Source of the DNA: Deltaproteobacteria bacterium
GTDB lineage: Bacteria; Desulfobacterota; Desulfobulbia; Desulfobulbales; Desulfobulbaceae
NCBI GenBank assembly: GCA_024280455.1
Contig: JAJRQC010000121.1
Location: forward strand, 1 to 38,773
Reading direction: 5' to 3'
Length of the DNA stretch: 38,773 nt
Shown here piece by piece: positions 4,672 to 8,857 of this stretch; position 1 is the first letter of the stretch; each line of letters starts with the position of its first letter. Position numbers and translations under genes: made by a program. The notes below the pieces were generated by a model, which saw only the letters and a program-made list of their open reading frames with translations, did not search any database and was not told where the DNA came from.

Positions 4672-4785
4672 GATTATCCTCCTGTTATTAAATTTTCATT
4701 TTTTTTTGTAACATATCGTTGTAACAAATTTAAATATCATGATTAAAAACGATGGCAAAGGGGGGCATGGCAAATCCTTCACCGG

Positions 4786-5552
4786 CTACGAATCATTTTC
4801 TTTTGGTTCAAAGCCAAAAAATGTTTTCCGGGCAAAAATCCCGACCGCTATGATACTGACCTCGTATAGAATAATCAAAGGTCCGGCCATGAACAGCTGG
4901 TTGACTACATCAGGGGTCGGGGTCAGGATAGCGGCAGCGATAAAGGCAACAAGAACGGCATACTTTCTATGTTTCTTTAAAAAAGACGCGTTCACCACTC
5001 CTATTTTGGCGAGAAAAACCATAAAAACCGGGAGTTCAAAAACAAGGCCAAAGGCGATAAGCAGGCGCAGGGCCAGGGAGAAGTATTCACTGACTGCCGG
5101 CATCGGATCAAGGATTTCGCTGGAGTAGCCGATAAGGAACCGAAAGGCCGGAGGAAAGACGACAAAATACCCAAAGGCTGCGCCACCTAGAAAACAAAGG
5201 GTTGAAACAACGGAAAAGGGAAGCAGCACCCGTTTTTCATTTTTATAGAGCCCCGGAGCAACGAAACGCCATATCTGTTGAAAAATGACCGGGCTGCCGA
5301 GAAGAATACCACAGACGAGAGCGAGCTTTAGATAAAAAAAAACCCTTCCTGGTAGGAGATAAAGATAAGACTCTTATCTGCAGGCAGAACCCGGATCAGG
5401 GGCCGAAAAAACCAGTCGGCTATGGGTCGAATAAACCCATAGGCAACGGCAAAACCAACGGCAACTGCGGCCAGGGAAATAATCAGGCATGAGCGCAATT
5501 CCGCAAGGTGATCGGTCAGGCTTTGCTTGTCGAGTTGGGCGTTATTCTCCAT
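4786..5552 (-). pseudogene. tatC: tatC, Sec-independent protein translocase subunit, interrupted by a frameshift
   Basis: TatC is the multi-spanning membrane subunit that recognises twin-arginine signal peptides. The N-terminal part (5552 to about 5337) starts MENNAQLDKQSL, carries the family's HLAELR motif, two membrane segments and the conserved Glu of SYQEGF, then stops after FFFI. The rest continues in the next frame, in order YLKLAL, membrane spans, APGLYKNEKR and LTPTPDVVNQ, ending at 4786. The break lies in nine consecutive A (nine T in the mRNA) at 5334-5342. One extra T, or a -1 slip on the run, restores a normal protein of about 255 residues. Both halves remain free of other lesions, so this is a recent mutation, a sequencing error or a recoding site. 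No tatA/tatB is present in the window. Confidence 0.85.
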
Positions 5553-5740: not shown

Positions 5741-7114
5741 ATGCAGACAATTTTAGTTGTTGATGATGAACTGAGTATGCGGGAATTTCTCAAGATATTA
5801 CTTGAGAAAGAGGGATACCGCATATTGACCGCCGCCGATGGCGCTGAGGCACTGAGTCTTGCCGGCCAGAACTCCATCGACCTGGTTGTCTCCGATATTC
5901 GAATGCCCGGTATCAGCGGGCTCGAACTGCTGGCCGTACTCAAAGAGAAAAATGCAGACCTGCCCGTCATAATGATCACCGCCTTCGCTTCCCCGGACGA
6001 TGCGGTGACTGCGATGAAAAACGGCGCCTTTGACTATATCACAAAACCCTTTAATGTTGACGAGATAAAGAGTGTTATTTATTCGGCAACCACCCAGTCC
6101 CCTGAAAAATTCTCCCAGAGCTTGCCTGACGATTTTCCTGAAATTATCGGCCAGGGACCGGAGATGGTCAAAATTTTCGACCTGATTAAACGTATTGCCC
6201 CGACTCCGGCAAATATTTTAATTTACGGTGAATCCGGGACCGGTAAAGAACTTGTGGCCAAGGCTATTCACAGACATTCACGAGTGGCCGATAATCCGTT
6301 TGTCCCCATTACCTGCAGCGCAATCCCGGAAAGTCTTTTGGAGAGTGAACTTTTTGGTCATGTGAAAGGTTCCTTTACCGGGGCCATTGCCGACAAAGCC
6401 GGCCTCTTTCAGCAGGCTGACAACGGCACCGCCTTTCTTGATGAGATCGGGGAACTGACACCGATTATCCAGACCAAACTCCTCAGGGTCCTGCAGGAAC
6501 GTGAATTTATGCCGGTTGGCTCTCCGAAAACACAGCAGGTAAACGTACGGATCATTGCCGCCACCAATAGAAACCTGGAAGATGAAATCATAGCTGGAAA
6601 TTTTCGAGAGGATCTGTATTACCGCCTTGCGGTTGTTCCGATCCGGGTTCCTCCCTTGCGTGAACGAAAGGAAGATGTGTCGCTTCTCGTTGAACATTTC
6701 CTGAAAAAATATTCAAACATTATGGGCAAGGAGGTGCAGACGATCTCCTCCTATGGCCTTGAAGTCTTGATGGAATACGACTTTCCAGGTAACGTGCGTG
6801 AGCTGGAAAATATAATCGAACGTGGTGTTGCTCTTGAGTCCTCAAATATTATCCTGCCCGAAAGTCTCATCCTTTCCCTCCACAAAAAAAATGCCCACTC
6901 CAGTCAGAAAATTGAGGAGGCTCTGTTTACAGCTGCTCACAGCGAACAGGAACTCTTTGAACGGGGCATGGAAGAGGTTCTGATCGACGTGGAAAAAGAA
7001 ATGATACAGTATGCCCTGGAAAAATCAGGCAACTCAAAAATGGGTGCAGCCGAGCTTCTAAAAATAAGTTTCAGATCCTTACGGTATAAAACAAAAAAAT
7101 ATGGGATAGGCTGA
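5741..7114 (+). CDS. NtrC-family sigma-54 response regulator, PilR-like
   Basis: Cytoplasmic transcription activator for sigma-54 promoters, 457 residues. The receiver domain (1-115) has acidic D8/D9, phospho-acceptor D52 and K102. The AAA+ domain has Walker A GESGTGKE at 163-170, the sigma-54 loop GSFTGA at 210-215 (Ser for the common Ala, as in PilR proteins) and Walker B FLDEI at about 232-236. A Fis-type helix-turn-helix occupies about 415-457 (AAELLKISFRSLRYK). The cognate kinase follows 42 bases downstream, a typical two-gene operon. PilR is suggested by overall layout and the kinase's PilS-like form; target promoters are unknown and no pilin gene lies in the window. No strong Shine-Dalgarno is seen before the ATG. 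Confidence 0.9.
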   Translation: MQTILVVDDELSMREFLKILLEKEGYRILTAADGAEALSLAGQNSIDLVVSDIRMPGISGLELLAVLKEKNADLPVIMITAFASPDDAVTAMKNGAFDYITKPFNVDEIKSVIYSATTQSPEKFSQSLPDDFPEIIGQGPEMVKIFDLIKRIAPTPANILIYGESGTGKELVAKAIHRHSRVADNPFVPITCSAIPESLLESELFGHVKGSFTGAIADKAGLFQQADNGTAFLDEIGELTPIIQTKLLRVLQEREFMPVGSPKTQQVNVRIIAATNRNLEDEIIAGNFREDLYYRLAVVPIRVPPLRERKEDVSLLVEHFLKKYSNIMGKEVQTISSYGLEVLMEYDFPGNVRELENIIERGVALESSNIILPESLILSLHKKNAHSSQKIEEALFTAAHSEQELFERGMEEVLIDVEKEMIQYALEKSGNSKMGAAELLKISFRSLRYKTKKYGIG

Positions 7115-7156
7115 GCAACACTGCGTCAGCCTCCCCGGGACAGAATACAATCATCG

Positions 7157-8857
7157 ATGATGAATTTTGGTTTTTTTAAAGCTCTGACACCGATCTACGA
7201 CAATAACAGACAGTTGCGGCGCCATATTCTCTGGCTCTTGCTGATCCGGGTCATTTTCTTTACCCTGCTTATAGGCATCACCGCGGTCCTCGCCCTGCTC
7301 GGCACCCAGGTTCTCCTCCCTCCTCCGGCCGTTACCCTGGCCTTTCTGGCGGTGCTCTTTATTTTCTCCATCGGTTCCACGGCCCTGTTACAAAAAAACG
7401 ACCTGCGACTGCAGCGTTTTGGATTGATCCAGTTTCTCAGCGACACGATCTTCGCGGCAATCCTAGTCTACGGCACCGGCTGCAGCCAGTCGATTTTTAC
7501 CCCCGTCTTTATCCTGCCTGTCATTGCCGGCGGCCTGATCATGTACCGGACCGGAGGATTGATGTCTGCCGCCGCCGCCACCATTCTCTACGGACTGGTC
7601 CTCTTTATGGAGTATGCCGGTGTCCTGCCCGATTATATGGCGGAAATCGGCTATGTCACCGTTCACGACGTGCTCAAAGCAACCAACCTCTTTGCCGTCT
7701 ACGGGGTGACTTTTTTCCTCACCGCCTTTCTCAGTGGCACCCTTGCCGCCCGCCTGCGGACCACGGAGGAGGCACTCAGCCGAACCTCCCTTGAATTTGA
7801 CCGATTGACCCTGCTGTATAAACAGATTTTTGAAGATATATCCACCGGTATCATCACCGTTGATGATGCAGGCGCAATTACTTCCTGCAATACCGCTGCC
7901 GGTCGAATCACAGGGTATCCACCTGCAGAGGTTATCGGCCGCCCCATTGAGGATCACTTCCCCAGCCTCCAGCTTGAAAAAATATCCATCAGGCAGGTGG
8001 TTGATCTGAAGAAAAAAGACGGCTCAATGATTCGGGCCGGATACTCGTTCTCACGCCTCAACCTGCCGCCGGATCCTGAACGGGCGGACGTTGCCTGCAA
8101 CAACTGCAAGGTGATCACTCTGCAGGATATCAGCACCATTGAAAAAATGGAAAAAAGGGTTCGGGAAGCGGAAAAAATGGCGGCGATTGGCGAGCTCAGT
8201 GCCTCAATCGCCCATGACTTCAGGAACCCCCTGGCCGCCATCTCCGGGTGCGCCCAATTGCTCGCCCTGGAAGAAGGGGGCCAAGAGGGAACCGGCAAGA
8301 GTTTAAGCACAATAATCCTCCGCGAATCAAACCGGATGGCCAAAACCATTACCGACTTTCTGCAATTCGCCAGGCCTGCTGCCATTCAGGAAGAATGGTT
8401 TGATTTGCAGCGACTGGTCATTGAATCCATTGCCGCTGAACAAGACCTGCACTCCAGATATCTCAAAGGATTGATAGAAATGAATATTCCTGAAAATCTG
8501 GATGGATTCGGCGATCGCCAGCAATTGCAGACGGTTTTGACTCATCTACTTGAAAACAGCCTGACGTTTTCACCGGAAGAAAACGGCCCGATTACCGTCT
8601 CTGCGCGTGAAGACTCCTGGAATGTTATAAATGGTATCCGTATTGAAGTCCGAGACCTTGGACCCGGCATCGACCCTGCAACCAGGGAAAAGATTTTTCA
8701 GCCCTTCTTTTCAACCAGAGAGAGCGGAACAGGCCTCGGCCTTGCCATTATTCGCCAGATTGTTGAGAATCACCACGGAGAAGTTGTGGTGATCAGCAGT
8801 CCCGGACAGGGATGCACCATGCAAATCTTCCTGCCCCTGCCCTCACATATTGCCTGA
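7157..8857 (+). CDS. PAS-containing membrane sensor histidine kinase, PilS-like
   Basis: Likely phosphorylates the response regulator encoded just upstream. It has 566 residues. About six hydrophobic segments fill residues 20-190 (for example LLLIRVIFFTLLIGITAVLA split into spans), the PilS-type membrane domain. A PAS domain follows at about 215-335 (ITSCNTAAGRITGYP, EVIGRPIEDHFP). The dimerisation/phospho-acceptor H box is AHDFRNPLAAISG with H353, and the catalytic ATPase domain has DLGPGIDP and GTGLGLAI near 495-530. Within PAS a pair of Cys (CNNCK) could bind metal or thiol, but this is speculative. ATG codons occur at 7157 and 7160. Kinase after regulator is the reverse of the usual pilS-pilR order. 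Confidence 0.9.
   Translation: MMNFGFFKALTPIYDNNRQLRRHILWLLLIRVIFFTLLIGITAVLALLGTQVLLPPPAVTLAFLAVLFIFSIGSTALLQKNDLRLQRFGLIQFLSDTIFAAILVYGTGCSQSIFTPVFILPVIAGGLIMYRTGGLMSAAAATILYGLVLFMEYAGVLPDYMAEIGYVTVHDVLKATNLFAVYGVTFFLTAFLSGTLAARLRTTEEALSRTSLEFDRLTLLYKQIFEDISTGIITVDDAGAITSCNTAAGRITGYPPAEVIGRPIEDHFPSLQLEKISIRQVVDLKKKDGSMIRAGYSFSRLNLPPDPERADVACNNCKVITLQDISTIEKMEKRVREAEKMAAIGELSASIAHDFRNPLAAISGCAQLLALEEGGQEGTGKSLSTIILRESNRMAKTITDFLQFARPAAIQEEWFDLQRLVIESIAAEQDLHSRYLKGLIEMNIPENLDGFGDRQQLQTVLTHLLENSLTFSPEENGPITVSAREDSWNVINGIRIEVRDLGPGIDPATREKIFQPFFSTRESGTGLGLAIIRQIVENHHGEVVVISSPGQGCTMQIFLPLPSHIA

Follow-up and report, generated by a model that had tools for sequence, protein, structure and literature searches.

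How could a full-length TatC protein still be made from a gene whose reading frame breaks off at a homopolymer? The window, i.e., the entire 38,773-nucleotide stretch of deltaproteobacterial DNA analyzed here, raises this question with a tatC gene on its minus strand. The 0-frame open reading frame (ORF; 5552..5328) encodes only 74 amino acids (aa) ending in YQEGFFFI, spans the N terminus, the first transmembrane helix (TM1), and the first periplasmic loop, and matches positions 1 to 58 of the 208 positions of the Pfam TatC model. At its end, the coding strand reads a Gly codon, GGG (5343..5345), nine Ts (5342-5334; TTT TTT TTT, nine As on the plus strand), and then ATC TAA, such that the 0-frame stop codon (TAA, 5330..5328) lies one codon past the run. 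If base 5334 of the run is read twice, as in -1 decoding, the sequence continues as TAT CTA AAG, the last two codons of which generate the 0-frame stop, and the shifted frame (4786..5334; 182 codons plus a stop codon at 4788..4786) stays open as YLKLAL... down to position 4786. This second half matches positions 56 to 208 of the Pfam model. The joined -1 reading covers the TatC domain (PF00902) at full length (positions 1 to 208 of 208; E = 2.2e-72) and was aligned with solved TatC structures (e.g., 4b4a, over query residues 12 to 243), which bears out the statement in the initial annotation that rereading one T leads directly into conserved TatC sequence.

The initial annotation weighed slippage or -1 frameshifting at the U run against a homopolymer sequencing error or a new null mutation, and suggested comparing run lengths in relatives, among which an intact, nonhomopolymeric junction would point to an artifact. 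We recovered this TatC with E values of 1e-50 or better from 223 of the 257 genomes of the order Desulfobulbales, whose members are mostly sulfur cyclers (142 of the 148 of good quality; sizes in the order listing range from 1.2 to 6.8 Mb, with some genomes incomplete), and examined the junction in 184 distinct genes drawn from 183 genomes, leaving out the tatC genes of the remaining genomes. The identical one-base break was present in 176 of these genes, whereas a mere 8 were in frame, such that the refuting condition set in the initial annotation is fulfilled by only 8 of 184. The T run was unbroken in all 176 frameshifted genes, including that of the window, with nine Ts in 173 and ten in the other 3. 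They carry 12 different family codes and 51 genus codes, and 14 of the assemblies are listed as single contigs. Every one of the 176 breaks is a -1 break, with no orthologue shifted the other way. That so many genes break at one and the same codon is more than chance and supports the slippage or frameshifting that the initial annotation had suspected from one gene. The exact motif GGN-T9-AYCTRAAR, which misses genes with Ala before the run, was found in 171 of the class's 257 genomes, and the reversed control motif was found in none of these. The frameshifted genes also satisfy the cluster criteria as set out in Table 1 of PMC3711429 (at least 5 frameshifted homologues and a conserved site), and they span more than two genera. 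A search for relatives in viral contigs yielded no confirmed case.

Judged by this distribution, the frame break is a trait of an order and not a peculiarity of this genome. Homopolymers are indeed error-prone, but an error or a fresh null mutation would have to explain why 176 of 184 genes, single-contig assemblies included, share one state, as well as codon selection built around the break (see below); we regard it as practically ruled out. Homopolymers also mutate readily, so that the run might conceivably toggle within populations between T9 (off) and T10 (on). Such phase variation does not fit the data because none of the 184 genes is in frame with a T run that continues uninterrupted into the Tyr codon; moreover, frameshifted runs are only 9 or 10 bases long and leave the same frame in all 176 genes. 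We accord it hardly any more credence than the sequencing error.

The eight in-frame genes differ from the rest in the run itself: each has at least one TTC ahead of the Tyr codon, the C of which interrupts the Ts. Their longest T runs measure 9 (L035), 8 (L199), 7 (L040), 6 (L231), 5 (L217), and 2 (L041, L045, and L051) bases; hence, the run is below nine in seven of the eight, with L035 as the exception. L035 groups in the tree with L199, a gene of a different family code, and for this reason it may be a transferred gene or lie on a contaminant contig. The assembly in question (G013) contains both a frameshifted (L029) and an in-frame (L035) tatC of this clade. Outside the order, the 14 best-scoring outgroup loci that we fetched from the phylum (L289 to L302) were all in frame, with T runs of 3 to 7 bases, and 7 of them have EAFFTYLK at the junction. 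Among 75 loci with broader TatC matches (L062 to L136), we saw no frame break in the 51 with both halves aligned; in the other 24, the first half was unaligned, making them uninformative. On a tree inferred from 198 proteins with the junction left out, in which 71 of 195 inner branches are weakly supported, the frame state requires five changes. One gain and four losses of the break would fit this tree, with the Electronema group and three other lineages as revertants.

The codons flanking the run show that more than the run has been retained. The 0-frame stop codon one codon past it, which the initial annotation had pointed out in the window, persists, as either TAA or TGA, in all but one of the 176 frameshifted genes. 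This stop codon arises when the Leu codon after Tyr is CTA or CTG ahead of the Lys codon, and these 175 genes have CTA in 103 cases and CTG in 72. The single exception, L160, has Phe at the Leu site and a 0-frame stop codon a few codons on. On the tree, this Leu codon switched between CTA and CTG 33 times and never left CTR, as against 22 to 48 exits from CTR in ten control Leu columns further downstream; a nearby column (Leu codon 4 of the -1 part, two codons past the stop-forming Leu) had 5 exits. CTA accounts for 59% of Leu codons at the junction site versus 2.3% elsewhere in tatC. As for Leu codon 4 itself (5323-5325 in the window), it is CTA or CTG in only 5 of 169 genes across the family, and TTA at this position accompanies GCC before the run in 22 of 28 genes.

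The codon before the run is comparably constrained. Gly is encoded there by GGG in 133 of 147 genes and Ala by GCC in 28 of 29, and the codon changed 18 times on the tree versus 71 and 75 times in two control Gly columns. GGT occurs before the run in 3 of 147 genes versus 114 of 341 codons in the two control Gly columns, and a run-lengthening T at the last base of the pre-run codon is found in only 4 of 176 genes. We have no full account of this usage: it excludes a T that would extend the run, but run length does not explain the preference for GGG over GGC or GGA. Over the gene as a whole, the median dN/dS was 0.105 for the first half and 0.052 for the second (321 nonindependent pairs with at least 85% identity), values showing that both halves are under purifying selection. 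A pseudogene was accordingly rejected as a candidate, as the break is conserved and both halves are under such selection.

Conservation of both halves could also be expected if they were translated separately and assembled into a split TatC. This reading would call for a start codon of the second half. However, no ATG, GTG, or TTG precedes the junction by 20 codons or fewer in the open -1 frame (0 of 173 genes), a single ATG lies between codons -20 and +5 (1 of 173), and there is no fixed downstream start; the lack of an ORF2 start near the ORF1 stop also excludes translational coupling. We consider a split TatC very improbable.

What remains is that the break is read through in expression. 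We estimate at about 90% the probability that tatC of Desulfobulbales is a conserved programmed -1 recoding gene, with its expression inferred in the absence of any RNA or protein data. Under the proposed mechanism, faithful decoding at T9 would yield a 74-residue stub terminated one codon later, and a backward slip of one base on the U run would yield full-length TatC, the production of which is likewise an inference. The likely effect would be a fixed, submaximal share of full-length TatC per transcript.

Which machine slips is much less certain, and sequence cannot settle it. We lean slightly toward the RNA polymerase, which would add one U in a fraction of transcripts. In PMC6260861, the Escherichia coli RNA polymerase is described as slipping on runs of at least 7 Ts, with a preference for T, and its insertions are reported to outnumber deletions about threefold. 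The inference, held only a little above even, rests on an uninterrupted run of at least nine in every frameshifted member (programmed transcriptional realignment calls for about 8 or more), the absence of any stimulator in our searches, the avoidance of lengthening codons, one displaced run, and in-frame genes that keep the heptamer. The displaced run, a single case (L036), has lost its last T but is preceded by GCT, which keeps nine Ts with the run moved one base upstream. The nine-T run as such does not discriminate between the machines because three Phe codons with a shiftable heptamer amount to nine Ts anyway.

The competing possibility is ribosomal recoding by a tandem -1 slip of the P- and A-site tRNA-Phe on U_UUU_UUU, with UAU as the next codon. 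The frameshifted genes do present an in-phase heptamer of the X_XXY_YYZ type, and L036 also offers U_UUU_UUA; the 0-frame stop codon one codon downstream of the run is likewise in favor of a ribosomal shift. Orthologues shifted both ways are the usual mark of transcriptional realignment in PMC3711429, without being indispensable to it; in the main text of that paper, Antonov et al. read shifts in a single direction as pointing to the ribosome rather than to transcription, and all 176 breaks are one-way. As an argument against the polymerase, this one-directionality is weak because the break has one origin, but it stands. Slips by other amounts would also reach the third frame, yet we saw no selection for early stops there, with a median of 31 codons open versus 18 in outgroups. 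L035, in frame yet with nine Ts, is a further awkward point for the explanation that we favor. On the other side, three in-frame genes (L035, L199, and L231) retain the in-phase U_UUU_UUY heptamer, in L199 and L231 with runs below nine, and the searches for ribosomal stimulators gave nothing above background.

For the latter, predicted structure downstream of the run had a mean z of -0.14 to -0.61 in 60 sampled genes (windows starting 6 to 12 bases past the run), and other tatC windows gave a mean z of -0.95 to +0.34, such that none stands out. RNAalifold on all 173 genes returned no structure in any window, controls included, and is hence uninformative. Although the genes contain an SD-like AGGA, its Glu codon does not favor the SD-improving GAG (GAA in 115 genes and GAG in 47, near background). 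Ribosomal recoding remains a serious contender to which we give somewhat less than an even chance. The polymerase likewise gains no dedicated stimulator: a slippage-stimulating hairpin abutting the run upstream had a mean energy of -4.08 versus -4.06 in synonymous randomizations of 60 sampled frameshifted genes. A terminator-like upstream stem-loop that promotes slippage was rejected on this near-equality of energies; the idea of stem-loop-mediated slippage reportedly comes from Penno et al. in 2015.

A separate question is whether the recoding brings any benefit or is a compensated accident, in which an ancestral deletion became fixed and slippage yields enough TatC without regulatory gain. 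Two further TatC paralogues in the genome would make such an accident easier to bear. They are in frame and distant, with 36 and 35% identity over the stretch that was compared (the first half of one, L003, was not aligned), and with them present, losing this copy alone would not abolish TatC. The argument in the initial annotation that loss of TatC would be unexpected in such an organism is corrected to this extent. A homopolymer should often revert by one T, but four losses are all that the tree requires; and the 0-frame stop codon is kept, which a mere accident does not need, although it could limit junk read-out. The accident has a precedent in insect endosymbionts, in which, according to the part of PMC5009743 searched, homopolymer frameshifts are rescued by slippage. 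We treat the compensated accident as a tenable but doubtful reading.

Known systems offer partial parallels for the programmed recoding that we favor. Transcriptional slippage at a U run is reported for Shigella flexneri mxiE (PMC1088944), where, as proposed for tatC, an extra U in some transcripts fuses two overlapping ORFs into a longer protein. However, mxiE encodes a transcription activator and sits on a virulence plasmid. The tatC gene encodes part of a core translocase and has retained its break throughout an order, and its slippage is inferred rather than reported. The same source describes slippage in insertion sequence elements and in Thermus thermophilus dnaX, which shares a run of nine, though there slippage on nine As gives the shorter product and in tatC it would give the longer one. 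Magnesium chelatase (PMC3711429) resembles tatC in having a homopolymer -1 shift across genera and full-length in-frame versions in other lineages, and differs in its A run and its extent (23 genes from six genera); its shift was measured at up to 63% in E. coli. The poly(A) genes of Buchnera and Blochmannia (PMC5009743) similarly show that a homopolymer frame break can be tolerated in conserved genes. These occur in reduced, AT-rich genomes with long poly(A) tracts, whereas tatC has T9, a selected 0-frame stop codon, and genomes of ordinary size. We found no report of tatC recoding in the literature searched, which did not cover Sharma et al. 2011 or Wernegreen et al. 2010 (Blochmannia); tatC is not mentioned in the main text of PMC3711429 or in the searched part of PMC5009743.

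The surroundings of the gene were also surveyed. The region at 5741-8857 encodes a sigma-54 response regulator, along with a kinase whose membrane domain is PilS-like, in divergent orientation to tatC. A similar regulator adjoins tatC in 37 of the 82 loci tested, all of them in genus codes that belong to family f1. A class II aldolase is found beside it in 43 of the 82 loci, which include some duplicate genes. A second nine-base run (4699-4707; T on the plus strand) is located immediately before the aldolase gene, upstream of it, and does not overlap the coding sequence. Three TatA/B-type genes are encoded elsewhere in the genome, two of them in tandem on a contig without a tatC match (C14:59077-59438) and the third near a tatC on contig C57. 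Runs of T9 or A9 have 288 placements elsewhere in the genome, nested ones counted. We fetched 30 such loci and evaluated 26, two of which cover the same run; given this coverage, the comparison is a partial control. In just three of the 26 (L311, L316, and L327), a single frame is open for at least 75 codons to either side of the run. These three, on contigs C5, C8, and C17, are all A9 runs and could be either additional sites of slippage or A runs in ordinary coding sequence.

Beyond its existence, the recoding might be a control device of the Tat system, in which the slipped fraction sets TatC against its partners and the one-helix stub of 74 residues may take part. This is a conjecture that we consider unlikely as matters stand. 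Were it so, the slip fraction would perhaps respond to transcription speed, the supply of tRNA-Phe, or tension on the nascent chain while TM1 is entering the membrane. The last of these is a lead, not a result, resting by analogy on alphavirus work (PMC8682741) and on the distance between TM1 and the slip site, the center of TM1 lying about 42 residues before it (TM1 was placed and counted by eye).

An order-wide recoding of apparently single origin in a core membrane translocase would take bacterial programmed frameshifting beyond mobile elements, prfB, and dnaX. Annotation pipelines would be inclined to treat genes of this kind as pseudogenes, and we infer that TatC would therefore look missing in these genomes. 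The existence of revertants in the Electronema group and three other lineages means that what the device costs and what it brings can be tested by comparing lineages, and the order as a whole would show that programmed recoding can persist even though reversion should be easy.
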